A DNA stretch of 64,000 bases from a virus: the IMG/VR virus record IMGVR_UViG_3300036715_002359, positions 1 through 64,000 of that record; one strand, given 5' to 3'. A program made the position numbers and the translations under genes. The notes under the pieces are model-generated. The model made no database searches and was not told the origin of the DNA. It saw only the letters and a list, made by a program, of their open reading frames with translations. Positions 6,059 through 36,314 of this stretch are shown piece by piece. Numbering within the stretch: the first letter of the stretch is position 1; every line of letters starts with the position of its first letter.

Positions 6059-6071
6059 CCCACAGGAGATT
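6059..6071 (+). promoter_or_regulatory. CCCACAGGAGAT-type ribosome-binding leader
   Basis: This is the best example of the ribosome site CCCACAGGAGAT that recurs, with small changes, before genes at 8533, 9029, 9443, 36863, 41846 and 61493. All 12 bases are complementary to ATCTCCTGTGGG inside the candidate small RNA at 15558-15569. Confidence 0.6.
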
Positions 6072-6075
6072 TACC

Positions 6076-7020
6076 ATGATTGTAGATACTCGTCGTAAAA
6101 CGTTACGGTGGAAAGATGACCAATGGATGTCGGTAGCTGAATGGCTTTTGAACAACCGTGCTTCCAAATGTGAAGTGTCCGGTCTGTTTGCCATTAAAGC
6201 TAAAGATATCATGGACGCTCAAGAAGCAATACTGACGTCAGAATACCATCGGACTGGAACTCCGATAATGGTGGACTTGCGTAAAAAACTGCAAGAATAC
6301 TTGGCAATACTGATTGAAATACGTGTTTCTGAACAATCGAAATTGACCGATCCGGTACAAGTTATCATTGACCAGGCGAAAGCTAATGATATTACTGCTC
6401 AGTTATTATCCCAGGTTTCGTCTGGGCAGCTGATGGATAAGCTGATCGATGTATTGGTCGATCGTCTGGTGGAACGTCTTGGTACCAAAATCAGTGACGA
6501 AGTCATTGATAGTTTGGCCATGATGAAAATGGGCGATCTTCCCACTCATTCACTTCCTTCAGTCATCCAGGGTTTGCCTAAAGACGAAGACGAAGACGAA
6601 GGTAACTCACTCTTCTTCGACTCTCGGCAGCCAGCATTGACTAATCATACTATTCCAAAAAGTACGGTTAGTTCAAAGTTGAAACACAACCCAGAAGTAG
6701 TTTCAGCTCCAAAAGTATTGAAGCCACGTATTGCGTTAATTGGCTTTACTCACAACGACTGGAATATTCTTCGCATCGAGTTTCCAATGTTCGAACTCCA
6801 ATACTTTAATGAAACTAGCAAGAATCTCCGTGCTTCGTTGAAGACGTTTGATTTCGGCCTGGGTGCCATCGGTCGTATGAATGGTGGTCTGCATCCTATC
6901 GCCAAAGATACTCTTGGCAAAAAGTACTTCCCTGCTGATGGTGCCGCATACACAATGCGTAACCAACTGAAATCTTGGGCTAAAGCCTTCGCAGAAGATC
7001 CAAGTTTCTTTCAAAAGTAA
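6076..7020 (+). CDS. Unknown 314-aa protein, two domains
   Basis: The N-terminal half (1-170) is helical and charged; a 50-residue acidic and polar linker (DEDEDEG) follows. The C-terminal 100 residues have an alternating beta-alpha pattern beginning KPRIALIGF, somewhat like DUF2325-type or related nucleotide-binding folds. No catalytic motif is clear. It forms a monocistronic unit with its own promoter and terminator. A regulatory or DNA-associated role is only a guess. Confidence 0.7.
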   Translation: MIVDTRRKTLRWKDDQWMSVAEWLLNNRASKCEVSGLFAIKAKDIMDAQEAILTSEYHRTGTPIMVDLRKKLQEYLAILIEIRVSEQSKLTDPVQVIIDQAKANDITAQLLSQVSSGQLMDKLIDVLVDRLVERLGTKISDEVIDSLAMMKMGDLPTHSLPSVIQGLPKDEDEDEGNSLFFDSRQPALTNHTIPKSTVSSKLKHNPEVVSAPKVLKPRIALIGFTHNDWNILRIEFPMFELQYFNETSKNLRASLKTFDFGLGAIGRMNGGLHPIAKDTLGKKYFPADGAAYTMRNQLKSWAKAFAEDPSFFQK

Positions 7021-8482: not shown

Positions 8483-8532
8483 AGAATTGGTATCAAATAA
8501 ATCTATAACCTACCTCCCCACAGGATAACATC

Positions 8533-12745: not shown

Positions 12746-13171
12746 ATGTTGGAATTCTTATTTTTTATACTCACATTCGGTGGTGGGGGTTATGCAGGTT
12801 ATTTGTATTCACATAAAATAGCTCCTTTAAGAGAAAATTCAAAGAGGAGTTTGGAAAATATAGACTTAAACTCTTGGCTAAAAAATGCAATGGATAATAT
12901 TGTTCCAACGATCAGGGAAGGAGATATTCCTAATTTTGGTAAAAGTATGATATCTCTAGAAATGTTACCTATTTTTGGATACTATCTTTTCAATGTCTTT
13001 ATAGTTTATCTGTGTGCTTGGTTTGGAGCGACTTTTACGGCCATTATGGTTTTAGCAGCAGGTACTTGGTTAATGAATTTGGAATTGAACGAATACCAAA
13101 GAAGGCATAAGATCTTCTGGGATGCACTAGCAGATGCAGCCCGAAGAGTAGTTGAAAAATCAACTAATTGA
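12746..13171 (+). CDS. Membrane protein, 141 aa
   Basis: An N-terminal hydrophobic segment (2-20), a charged central region, then a long hydrophobic stretch at about 72-108 that can form two spans, and a basic amphipathic tail. Ribosome site TTGGAGAA. No family is recognised; inner-membrane location is inferred. Confidence 0.7.
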   Translation: MLEFLFFILTFGGGGYAGYLYSHKIAPLRENSKRSLENIDLNSWLKNAMDNIVPTIREGDIPNFGKSMISLEMLPIFGYYLFNVFIVYLCAWFGATFTAIMVLAAGTWLMNLELNEYQRRHKIFWDALADAARRVVEKSTN

Positions 13172-13197: not shown

Positions 13198-13248
13198 ACA
13201 AGAAAAGGGTATAATCCATTTGTATTATAAATAACCTACGAGGGAATC

Positions 13249-15360: not shown

Positions 15361-15378
15361 GCTTTATTTTAGTGGTAA

Positions 15379-15403
15379 TAAAAAATCCAGGACAAGCCTG
15401 GAT
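15379..15403 (-). terminator. Terminator on the minus strand
   Basis: ATCCAGG / CCTGGAT with T6 on the minus strand. It would stop late transcripts coming from 16.8 kb, just before the 14458-15360 gene, and lies upstream of the small-RNA promoter on the other strand. Confidence 0.55.
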
Positions 15404-15427
15404 TGAAGTTAAAGAAGAGTGGCTGAT

Positions 15428-15445
15428 TTTGGTATAAGTATAGTA
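15428..15445 (+). promoter_or_regulatory. Early-type promoter motif, full consensus, with no gene downstream
   Basis: TTTGGTATAAG plus TATAGTAC, as good as the copies at 3189, 6002 and 13179. No protein frame with a ribosome site follows; a terminator comes about 190 bases later, defining the small-RNA unit. Confidence 0.7.
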
Positions 15446-15634
15446 CTAAAGCACATAACAATTAACTTTACCAGGTCACCCCTGCTCACATTCGGTTTTC
15501 CCCTAGGTACAAAGTAGTCATTCATATTGTTTGTTGAAGTCCCAATCTTCAACAGACATCTCCTGTGGGAATGGCTAGTAATCTTTGTACTTTTCGACCG
15601 AGTGAGTGTGTGTTCCTCCTCGGTCTTTTTTTTT
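15446..15634 (+). ncRNA. Candidate small regulatory RNA complementary to early ribosome sites
   Basis: The unit has a consensus promoter, about 190 bases without a plausible gene, then a 7-bp terminator stem and T9. Internal structure: an 8-bp hairpin TGTTGAAG / CTTCAACA (15532-15554), and an outer pairing GTACAAAG (15507-15514) with CTTTGTAC (15583-15590). Between the hairpin and the closing arm lies ATCTCCTGTGGG (15558-15569), the exact complement of CCCACAGGAGAT before the gene at 6076 and nearly so for six other plus-strand genes. Trans-acting repression of early translation is inferred. Alternative: the opposite strand reads as a leader for a tiny frame (13 or 38 codons), but it lacks a promoter and would run through the one described here. 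Confidence 0.55.
15596..15634 (+). terminator. Terminator of the small-RNA unit
   Basis: GACCGAG (15596-15602) pairs with CTCGGTC (15619-15625), then T9. Confidence 0.85.
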
Positions 15635-15638
15635 GTAA

Positions 15639-16946: not shown

Positions 16947-17198
16947 ATGCCAGGACCAACTAAACCAAAATGGCCGTACAAAGAAAATATGGTTTCAGTA
17001 GAAATCACCACCAGTAGAGGATTAACGTTTACTGGGTATTTGCATCGTGGTAACCATAACACGTTAATCATGGGTTGGCTCAAAGGTCATGCAGTTCTTC
17101 CACTGCTAAATTTTGACGAGTCACCTGCTTACTTTTTAGGTATAGATCTCGGTACCACCGCTGCAGTTCGTTTATTTAACTTGGTGAAACCATCATGA
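16947..17198 (+). CDS. Unknown 83-aa protein
   Basis: First gene of the operon, ribosome site TTAGGAGAAAAG. Beta-rich (MVSVEITTSRGLTFTGYLHRG). It overlaps the macro-domain gene by 4 bases (ATGA-type), so the two are translationally coupled. No family is recognised. Confidence 0.65.
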   Translation: MPGPTKPKWPYKENMVSVEITTSRGLTFTGYLHRGNHNTLIMGWLKGHAVLPLLNFDESPAYFLGIDLGTTAAVRLFNLVKPS

Positions 17199-17734
17199 TT
17201 GTTACCAAAGTAGAAAGTGATTTACTCACCTTGGAAAAAGGTATTCTTGTACATGGCTGTAACTGTATGGGTATAATGGGTGGTGGCATTGCTTGGAGCA
17301 TTCGTGAAAAGTGGCCTGGTGTTTTTGCTGCTTACTCCAATCATGAAGCTGCAGTAGGTCTGCATCTTGGCGACATAGTTGCTGTTTCCAAACATGGTGT
17401 TGTTACTCAAACTGATTCAGAAGGTAAAATTTTCACCGCTGATACTGAATATAGAGATAACAATCTACCTCCAGAGTTAATCGTAGTAAATGCAATGACT
17501 CAATTTAATTTTGGGGGAAATACGGACGTTATCTACGTAGACTACGATGCTATCTCTGCCTGCTTTGCAAGGGTCAAAATTTTAGCCAGACAAAGTGGCT
17601 TAGCAGTACACTTCCCTCTCATTGGCTGCGGCTTAGCGAATGGAGATTGGGAAGAAGTTTCAAACCGGATAGAACAAGCATTAGGTCCGGATATCAAAAC
17701 CCAATTGTGGTTATTACCTCCAACCTCGAAATAA
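17195..17734 (+). CDS. Macro-domain protein (ADP-ribose binding/hydrolysis)
   Basis: 179 aa, a single macro domain. Hallmarks are the ligand-binding HGCNCMGIMGGGIA loop (about 20-33), the IVVNAMTQ strand and the second loop IGCGLANGDW (about 147-156). Macro domains bind or hydrolyse ADP-ribose derivatives; a phage copy may reverse host ADP-ribosylation, recycle NAD breakdown products or blunt ADP-ribose-based immune signals. Those roles are inference from the family. Confidence 0.88.
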   Translation: MIVTKVESDLLTLEKGILVHGCNCMGIMGGGIAWSIREKWPGVFAAYSNHEAAVGLHLGDIVAVSKHGVVTQTDSEGKIFTADTEYRDNNLPPELIVVNAMTQFNFGGNTDVIYVDYDAISACFARVKILARQSGLAVHFPLIGCGLANGDWEEVSNRIEQALGPDIKTQLWLLPPTSK

Positions 17735-28477: not shown

Positions 28478-28905
28478 TATCTTGTAGGGTTATTAAACTT
28501 TGGTCTAGTAACAGCCACAGGAGAAGGGGCCAGAGTAGAAGTACTCAAAGTTTTATTGATGTTGTTTAATGCAGTTAAGGACTTACGTTCTATATTAGAT
28601 TTATCTTCAGTAATTTTAGTAGCAGCTCTAGAATTATGATAATTAGCTAAGCCAAGGCCCAAACTAACTGAAGAGATCCCCACTCCTAGCTTTCCTGTTC
28701 TATCAAGATTCTTGCTCATAGCAATTTTCTCTAGGTATCTATTCACGCTTGCCCCTTTACTCATTTCTTGATACGGTCCGTCATCGCTTTGATTATATTT
28801 AAACTGTGAGTTTAAATTACCAGTAACGTCTGCGTTCGAACGAATTTCTTCAGCGTAAGAACCTAACGCTAATTTAGTAGAAGTTTCTGGTAGTTCTGTT
28901 TTCAT
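28477..28905 (-). CDS. Head-region protein with internal NRYLEKIA
   Basis: 142 aa. About 53 polar residues precede VNRYLEKIAMSKN, followed by a Gly/Leu-rich hydrophobic segment (LGVGISSVSLGLGLAN) and a basic C-terminus. The GTG just before NRYLEKIA could be an alternative start. It overlaps the protease start. Confidence 0.55.
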   Translation of the reverse strand: MKTELPETSTKLALGSYAEEIRSNADVTGNLNSQFKYNQSDDGPYQEMSKGASVNRYLEKIAMSKNLDRTGKLGVGISSVSLGLGLANYHNSRAATKITEDKSNIERKSLTALNNINKTLSTSTLAPSPVAVTRPKFNNPTR

Positions 28906-33700: not shown

Positions 33701-34501
33701 TCAACAACCAGCTATTGATAAGTTATTTCCGCTTGCTATAGTTTGTGCCGGTCCTGTTGGAGAAGCGTTATTAGCTACAGCCTGTCCACTGCTTTCTGTT
33801 ACTGGTAATCCTGTGGGTCCTTGCCCGTTATTAGCTATTTTATACGCCTCTCCTCTAATTATAGAATTAGCGTAAGCCTCTGGAGTAGTACCAGGTTTAT
33901 CAGATGCTCCTAATCCTAAGTAGGCAGCAACAGCAGCGGTTAATTTATTAGAGTATGTTCCAGTTTTTACTAAACCAGGAGCAAGTTCTTTATATTTGCC
34001 TTCTAACACCACTAAAGCACATTTAATTTGTTTCTCGTACGTGTCATCCCCTAGTAGAATTGTTTCTACAGACTCTCCTGGATTCACTAAACAATCAGAA
34101 GTTATATCAGGACGTAATCGTTCCATCTCAGATTTACCACTAGGCCCAGCACCTTTTATAACATACCAACCAGTAACTTGGCCAAGCCCAAAAGCAGCGT
34201 TAGCATTAACTATATTGGTTTTTTCTAAAGCCGTTCCAGAATTATATTTGCTAGATATGGCAGAAAGTTTTAATAGTTTTTTTAAAGCGTCATCTGAGTA
34301 GCTAATTCCTCGCTTAGAAACAAAAGAACTTTCCCTGTAAATCATAGCCATCACAACATTAACTATATCTGGAGCTTGGCCTAAAGTATTAGCAAAGTTT
34401 GCTTTTAGTTGGTCAACCACTAGTTGTCTAATTATCTGCCTATTAGCAGGAGATGACACAACTTGTTTAGCCATACCATTAGAGGTATTAGTACTTACCA
34501 T
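33701..34501 (-). CDS. Lytic transglycosylase-like protein
   Basis: 266 aa. MAMIYRESSF provides the catalytic-Glu region and AAFGLGQVTGWYV the G-L-x-Q motif of SLT lysozyme-like domains, though the spacing is longer than the shortest forms. The C-terminus is a low-complexity linker ending in Cys. It may make the peptidoglycan hole during injection or act in lysis. Overlaps the beta' C-half gene by 14 bases. Confidence 0.7.
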   Translation of the reverse strand: MVSTNTSNGMAKQVVSSPANRQIIRQLVVDQLKANFANTLGQAPDIVNVVMAMIYRESSFVSKRGISYSDDALKKLLKLSAISSKYNSGTALEKTNIVNANAAFGLGQVTGWYVIKGAGPSGKSEMERLRPDITSDCLVNPGESVETILLGDDTYEKQIKCALVVLEGKYKELAPGLVKTGTYSNKLTAAVAAYLGLGASDKPGTTPEAYANSIIRGEAYKIANNGQGPTGLPVTESSGQAVANNASPTGPAQTIASGNNLSIAGC

Positions 34502-36314
34502 CTGTAGGATCTCCGAATTCTGTACCCATCATATAAGAAGCAATAGGATCAGTTGAATGAATTGCACTCTCTTCGTTATAAGCGGCGGCATTTTCAATCG
34601 TGTCTTTAAGTTTATTAAATGACAGTTTAGATACCCAATTTTTATCTAGTAACTTAGCAGTTTGTAAACCAGGAACAATAGGAGTTACTCTAAGTTTAGA
34701 TGAGGATACATCTACTTTAGTAATACCTTTTTCTTTTAATTCCTGAACGTGGTTATAGTCTAATAGAGTACCTGGAGTTAAATCCAATACTCCTTTAGCT
34801 AAAACTTTGCCTTCAGCATCGTCAATATCGACTACCTTTTGATGCCCAATAAGATATTTAGCAATAACATCCACATTAAGTTTATCGCCTGGTAGAAATC
34901 CAGTTTCACCCGGATCTATCACTTGTACGTATTTGATAAGGTTACGTGCAATCAATTCAAAGTGACGAGGGTCTAATCCTCCACCATAAATGTGACGCAG
35001 TTCGTCAGCCATGTATTTACGGCCAGCACCCATACCACGTAGATGTACTAGTTTACGAGGATTTATAACTCCAGTAGATATGCGATCACCTTGTTTAACA
35101 TGGTCACCAGCTTTAACTACCAATTCTTGATTAATGGGAACGAAGTGTTTTTGTCCTTCGATGTATACGTTATGATCACCTAGAGGGGTTTTAACAATTG
35201 ACTCAACAAGGCCATTAACATTAGAAATAGTAGCTTCATCTTTAAAATTCTCAGATGGATTCATAAGAATATTAGAAGCTTGTTCGTAAGCATTACCCTT
35301 ACGTTCACCAACTGTGGCTCTGTGTTTGGTTGATAACATAGCCTGTGTCAAAACTTCAGTTACATATTGAGCGGCTATGACCCCAACGTTTTCACCAATA
35401 TTAGGCATTTTACCATTAGCCATTAGTCCGAAACATTTTTTACAAACTCCGTCTGGAGCTTCACAAGTCATAGAACTACGGACTTTAACTTCTTTCTTTC
35501 CAGAGTTTGCAAGTTCAGCTTGATAGTCTTGTGTAATTTCTCTATTAGTTCCAGCCTCAAATCTTCCTGTAACAGATTTTTTATCTGAAACATCTTTCAT
35601 GATACCGTTCTTAGTTCCACAATCATCTATTGTAATGGTTTCGTGAAATACGGTTGGAGATAACTTCTTGAACAAGGCACCAGGAAGGGCTGTGGAGAGC
35701 TGTGCTAACACTGTTGAGGCCCTACCCATGTAACTCATGGCAAGATGCTCAGCGGGGCTCATACCCTCTGCAAATGAATGTTTGATAACAATAGGGAGTA
35801 ACTCACCTTTAATGTTTGAAGACATCAATGGAGTTGAAGTACCAACGGCTAATTGTTTAGGATTACCACGAGCACCAGTGTTAGCCATCATAGCTGCAAC
35901 TGATCCTTTACCTAATAAATAGTCCAGATTTTGTTTTTCAATCATACCATTATACTTACCGGTAAGATTTGTCAAAGCATTATTAAGTTCAACTTTATTT
36001 TTTGTTTTTTCTTTTAAGTCTTTAACTTTATAGTCGAATTCTTTAATGATAGCTTGACGTTCATCAGAGTCATTCATGTAATCCGAAAGAGGGGTACTCG
36101 CTCCAATTTCGGTAGCTTTATTAAAGAATTGCTGGCCAAGATTATTAATATGTTCGTGAGCTTCGTCTCCCCCATGCTCTAACAACATATTGACGAGGTT
36201 GGACATTCCACCTTTATCTAAACGACGATGGATATCAAATCGGTTTTTCGATTCTTCGGTAGGCATTCCATGCTTTAAAAGCAATGCACCGGCAGTAGTT
36301 AGTTTTTCGCTCAT
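34488..36314 (-). CDS. RNA polymerase beta' subunit, C-terminal half
   Basis: 608 aa. Begins with TAGALLLKHGMP-like and DKGGMSNLVNMLL segments matching the beta' region that follows the funnel, then the bridge/trigger part (GVIAAQYVTEVLTQAMLSTKHRAT) and the C-terminal part (GAGRKYMADELRHIYGG). A Cys cluster CEAPDGVCKKC suggests zinc binding. Together with the 46489 gene it makes a complete beta'. Subunit split within beta' is typical of jumbo phage RNAPs. Location among late genes suggests a virion-packaged enzyme, by inference. Confidence 0.85.
   Translation of the reverse strand: MSEKLTTAGALLLKHGMPTEESKNRFDIHRRLDKGGMSNLVNMLLEHGGDEAHEHINNLGQQFFNKATEIGASTPLSDYMNDSDERQAIIKEFDYKVKDLKEKTKNKVELNNALTNLTGKYNGMIEKQNLDYLLGKGSVAAMMANTGARGNPKQLAVGTSTPLMSSNIKGELLPIVIKHSFAEGMSPAEHLAMSYMGRASTVLAQLSTALPGALFKKLSPTVFHETITIDDCGTKNGIMKDVSDKKSVTGRFEAGTNREITQDYQAELANSGKKEVKVRSSMTCEAPDGVCKKCFGLMANGKMPNIGENVGVIAAQYVTEVLTQAMLSTKHRATVGERKGNAYEQASNILMNPSENFKDEATISNVNGLVESIVKTPLGDHNVYIEGQKHFVPINQELVVKAGDHVKQGDRISTGVINPRKLVHLRGMGAGRKYMADELRHIYGGGLDPRHFELIARNLIKYVQVIDPGETGFLPGDKLNVDVIAKYLIGHQKVVDIDDAEGKVLAKGVLDLTPGTLLDYNHVQELKEKGITKVDVSSSKLRVTPIVPGLQTAKLLDKNWVSKLSFNKLKDTIENAAAYNEESAIHSTDPIASYMMGTEFGDPTDGKY

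Follow-up and report, generated by a model that had tools for sequence, protein, structure and literature searches.

Among the stand-alone RNA genes that virulent phages carry, few have, to our knowledge, a function that is known. The small RNAs of phage T4 lie within the T4 tRNA cluster. Small RNAs of virulent phages that have no assigned function have already been described, and in the virulent phage PAK_P3 RNA-seq revealed antisense RNAs made early, 176 ± 30 nt long, which lie mostly in the structural region and nearly all within genes, along with the late RNAs sRNA1 and sRNA2 of ~100 nt (PMC4933390). The stand-alone phage sRNAs PreS and VpdS are Hfq-dependent and act in trans on mRNA, and for the c4 RNA of phages P1 and P7, pairing over a ribosome site of its own phage was proposed, with one target, ant (PMC12197685).

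We analyzed a window of 64 kb (the whole stretch of DNA considered here) out of a 73.6-kb IMG/VR virus record. The strands of this phage are divided between late structural genes (minus) and early-type genes (plus), and positions 34488-36314 encode a multi-subunit RNA polymerase fragment (Pfam RNA_pol_Rpb1_5). Salmonella phage Arash and Vibrio phages D69, D148 and D181, 180-188 kb each, are distant relatives.

The locus described below, a very probable small RNA gene of ~190 nt at 15445-15634 on the plus strand, is similar in length to the early antisense RNAs of PAK_P3 and lies, like them, in the late structural region. Unlike them, it is intergenic, has a promoter and a terminator of its own, and was predicted from sequence alone. 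With PreS and VpdS it has in common the stand-alone organization and the U-rich terminator tail; these sRNAs, however, come from other phages, and their targets are known. A search for tRNA and tmRNA genes in the 64-kb window found none, and the RNA differs in this from the T4 small RNAs.

Promoter, Terminator, and Fold of the RNA

The sequence TTGGTATAAGTATAGTA at 15429-15445 (+) is an exact match to the early-type promoter, as an earlier sequence-only reading of this DNA had claimed. The promoter is of the extended -10 class (TGGTATAAG), without a good -35, and predicts a transcription start near 15445. Exact copies of TTGGTATAAGTATAGTA occur on the plus strand at two other positions, 6002 and 13180. 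The core TGGTATAA[GT] of the early-type promoter TTGGTATAAGtatAgTA has 17 copies on the plus strand of the whole record compared to 0 on the minus strand. Mostly, these copies are situated 10-90 nt upstream of a gene with a ribosome site; the copy at 15430 is the only one with no gene after it, and has instead a terminator ~180 nt downstream. The TTGGTATAAGtatAgTA motif is common to many related phage contigs.

The intrinsic terminator at 15596-15634 (+) consists of a 7-bp stem GACCGAG/CTCGGTC (15596-15602 / 15619-15625) followed by T9 (15626-15634); the terminator scan missed it because the loop is long. Upstream of it, folding predicts a long interrupted stem-loop at 15505-15592 (+), the tip of which is the hairpin GTTGAAG/CTTCAAC at 15533-15553. 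We observed that the RNA folded far better than its shuffled versions (z = -5.45, with 0 of 200 shuffles as good), and that the z-score was still -4.08 when the terminator was removed. Within the predicted transcript, ~15445-15634, no ORF both has a ribosome site and ends inside the unit. Thus, the hairpin, the terminator with its T9 and the stretch of about 190 bases devoid of a plausible gene, all parts of the sequence-only reading, were found as described, and the combination of own promoter, intrinsic terminator and no ORF is that of trans-acting sRNAs of the PreS/VpdS type.

The region could still be coding on one strand or the other, for a small protein or for a minus-strand gene read from a CACAGGAG site. 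Such a site is indeed present on the minus strand, where a frame of 47 codons has an SD-like energy of -7.5. This frame, however, crosses the promoter, and no counterpart of it is seen in the relatives; the plus-strand frames either have no ribosome sites or cross the terminator. We consider coding, on either strand, very improbable.

Placement Within the Late Structural Region

The unit sits wholly in the gap 15361-15638 between two minus-strand structural genes, coding for proteins of 144 aa and 300 aa. On the late strand, the terminator scan detected a terminator-like hairpin at 15384-15404 (-), which separates the RNA gene from the 300-aa gene. Upstream of the latter gene the sequence CTAAAATA is present at 15365-15372 (-); on the minus strand it was seen just upstream of late gene starts at 15372, 30572, 36327 and 46497, and is possibly a late promoter element for the phage's own polymerase. 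On the plus strand, a gene for a macro-domain protein is located at 17195-17734, and similar proteins are encoded close to the same structural genes in two other loci (L005 and L038).

A plus-strand unit between minus-strand structural genes is antisense within a late structural operon, and the counterparts in relatives are placed likewise. The main rival explanation builds on this placement: an early-made cis-antisense RNA would pair with late-strand transcripts leaking through this intergenic gap and would lower their expression. Such a role was proposed for the early antisense RNAs of PAK_P3, which have a similar size range and location (PMC4933390). Still, nearly all of those RNAs lie within genes, while the RNA described here does not extend beyond 15361-15638, overlaps no late coding sequence and covers no ribosome site. 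Since the RNA is limited to the gap and the late-strand hairpin stands between it and the 300-aa gene, this explanation is weakened, and we regard it as unlikely.

Counterparts in Related Phages

Five phage contigs, G001 to G005, were found via the flanking proteins and the promoter, and then read piecewise. All five have a counterpart without genes next to the 300-aa structural gene, again with a promoter of this type and with a terminator (G001 42301+, G002 62346-, G003 37329-, G004 12457+, G005 22357+). When the RNAs of the relatives were folded, three out of four had z-scores from -3.1 to -4.6; the G002 RNA, cut before the terminator arm, folded no better than shuffles (z = -0.40). Apart from a short 5' core, no sequence common to the RNAs of the window phage, G001, G004 and G005 could be detected. 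Because of this, common descent of the units has to be argued from position and promoter.

Other relatives have the gap either filled by unrelated protein genes or near empty. The two flanking genes are separated by 3 bases in Arash and by 9 in D69, which leaves no room for the unit. Across four loci (L005, L006, L056 and L060), the contents observed were an 86-aa early gene with the RNA unit, a 308-aa phosphoesterase-like gene with a 114-aa gene, an 87-aa gene, and a 222-aa gene. With contents so varied or near absent, the gap therefore looks like an insertion hot spot.

In such a spot the RNA might be a leftover or incidental transcription unit with no function. The unrelated genes or empty gaps of other relatives, and an RNA sequence that is mostly different between lineages, agree with this explanation. 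It is hard to reconcile, however, with a like unit in five relatives, with the strong folds, and with a divergence lower than that of adjoining third codon positions (see below). Absence of function thus appears to us improbable, and more so than action as a cis-antisense RNA.

A megablast search of the region against phage records gave no match, nor did the window match any family of Rfam 15 at gathering thresholds. With a relaxed Rfam threshold, applied to the window locus and four relatives, nothing above chance was seen at the RNA. Bacterial genomes scanned with a profile of the 144-aa protein gave no relative.

Besides the unit adjoining the 300-aa gene, we observed a second, larger gene-less unit of ~450 nt, with the same promoter and a strong terminator at its end. 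It is present at L065:254-720 (contig G001) and on the reverse strand of L015 from 13845. The two copies share 83-91% identity, one stretch varying in length, and have no Rfam match. A 22-nt piece of this unit occurs again in G005 near 13201 (L086), downstream of a promoter at 13138.

Divergence of the RNA in G002 and G003

The RNAs of G002 and G003 were identical in 148 of 155 alignment columns (95%), compared to 66 of 84 third codon positions (79%) in the gene stretches adjoining the RNA. The difference (P = 9e-5), observed in a single pair of relatives, favors constraint on the RNA. Over the entire 300-aa gene, the same pair was identical in 55% of third positions and in 52% of fourfold sites. 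The local comparison is the fair one, since third positions near the RNA are less diverged; for the same reason, a notion of extreme constraint, obtained by setting the RNA against the identity of about 50% at fourfold sites, was moderated. The low divergence reaches partly into the flanking genes and is seen in one pair only, and a recombination tract may thus be its source.

Given the syntenic gene-less units and the RNA identity above that of adjoining third positions, it is very likely that the RNA gene, with the same genome position in relatives, is real. The proposal of a candidate phage small RNA is therefore well supported by promoter, terminator and strong fold, by the shared location in five relatives, and by the low divergence of the only comparable pair.

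Complementarity to Early Ribosome Sites

The sequence-only reading went further and suggested that this RNA could mask many early ribosome sites, serving as a global early-to-late switch. The complementarity that it pointed to is present. Read in reverse complement, the segment ATCTCCTGTGGG (15558-15569, +) exactly matches CCCACAGGAGAT (6059-6070), in the leader before the gene at 6076. Six near matches, at 8517, 9009, 9423, 36846, 41829 and 61478, are each located in the leader of a plus-strand gene. The motif (C)CACAGGA precedes the start codon in seven early leaders, at 6059 and at these six positions. Complements of at least 8 nt to 7 early leaders were found, compared to 2.8 in shuffles (P = 0.04), and six nucleotides of the segment lie in a bulge of the predicted fold, with the rest largely paired.

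Complements of this kind, however, arise easily by chance. A 12-nt complement was matched by 0.9-1.4% of dinucleotide shuffles and by 0.6-1.4% of 190-nt stretches drawn at random from the window, which makes it marginal; these rates of ~1% apply to one RNA of such length set against the early leaders of this phage, before allowing for the search of the whole window that led to the segment. For example, chance complements of the same leaders, of comparable quality, are present on the late strand at 28515 and 29719. When the costs of opening were included, RNA-RNA pairing prediction against the leaders gave -8.5 kcal/mol for the best site, whereas the best sites of shuffled RNAs averaged -8.3 kcal/mol (P = 0.48). 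Moreover, the best-scoring site was the terminator arm and not the segment 15558-15569, which reached about -7 to -8 kcal/mol, and -8.3 at most.

Conservation of the segment, which the masking of ribosome sites would lead one to expect, was not seen either. A complement to ribosome sites was absent from all five syntenic RNAs (P from 0.2 to 1.0), and the early genes of these relatives carrying the unit were found to have no CACAGGA leaders. A scan of viral contigs with the segment and its flanks (ACAGACATCTCCTGTGGGA) gave no match and thus yielded no close relative for comparison. In addition, the RNA and the genes that it would target share the early-type promoter. Shutting of the early genes as a group, by pairing of 15558-15569 with the CACAGGAG leaders, is therefore very doubtful in spite of the exact 12-nt complement.

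Nor would such an RNA be the first of its kind, since the c4 RNA was already proposed to pair over a ribosome site, though with a single target each time (PMC12197685). c4 pairs near the ribosome site of ant; for the window RNA, the complement is absent from the related phages, no accessible loop segment with favorable pairing was found, and pairing is not thermodynamically favored.

A variant of the same idea is a lineage-specific regulon, in which the RNA and the seven early leaders would have acquired the CACAGGAG/CTCCTGTG complement, with one RNA tuning a group of early genes. The lack of both motif and complement in the five relatives would also be expected of a young regulon, yet it lends no positive support, and we find this variant just as doubtful.

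The 5' Core

Among the RNAs compared, the most widely kept part is the 5' core and not the segment complementary to ribosome sites. The core TACCAGGTCACCCCT at 15469-15483 (+) is common to the window RNA and to G002/G003, where it reads TACCAGGTCATCCCCT. This 15-nt sequence, TACCAGGTCA-YCCCCT near +25, is the sole one common to these RNAs; only 2 of 300 shuffles were as good. Its distance to the promoter is equal in the window and in G002/G003, and a variant, CCAGGCAAACCC, is present at the corresponding place in G001. In the window RNA the core may form a mini-hairpin, CAGG-UCACC-CCUG. More generally, a small hairpin AGG-N5/6-CCU could form in the window RNA, where folding predicts it, as well as in G002/G003 and G001, where it was deduced by eye.

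Scanned alone, the core motif returned mostly unrelated sites. The scan with promoter and core together returned only G001-G003 and one chance match within a gene for a protein of 2609 aa. A duplex scan, which ignores opening costs, for trans targets common to the relatives showed no convergence and found none. The core may also match the 3' region of 16S rRNA in part, though weakly, and we give this little weight.

Discussion

On balance, we find it moderately probable that 15445-15634 encodes an early structured untranslated RNA, likely a trans regulator acting via its 5' core rather than through masking of ribosome sites of the phage itself. From the sequence analysis came the anatomy of the unit, its occurrence at the same place in related phages, the low divergence within one pair of them and the absence of the anti-ribosome segment elsewhere; transcription, early timing, trans action, the importance of the 5' core and a target of the RNA are what we infer.

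In the preferred reading, the early-type extended -10 promoter would transcribe the RNA from within the gap of a late structural operon, and the RNA's own terminator would end the transcript. Early in infection the RNA would act in trans as a regulator, by base pairing or by binding a protein, and would be read mainly through the core at 15469-15483; regulation through this core is our best guess as to mechanism. Later, readthrough of the gap would produce a perfect antisense to the RNA, and late transcription could for this reason remove it.

Stand-alone phage sRNAs are already a known kind, and the strongest statement we would make is that the locus holds a real RNA gene, early-type and untranslated, belonging to an undescribed RNA family with no Rfam match. 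For RNAs of ~190 nt in general, the locus illustrates how readily 12-nt complements to ribosome sites may come about by chance. For this clade of large phages, it would add an RNA unit, missing from Rfam, with a kept genome position and with coordinates of start, stop and core that can be put to the test.
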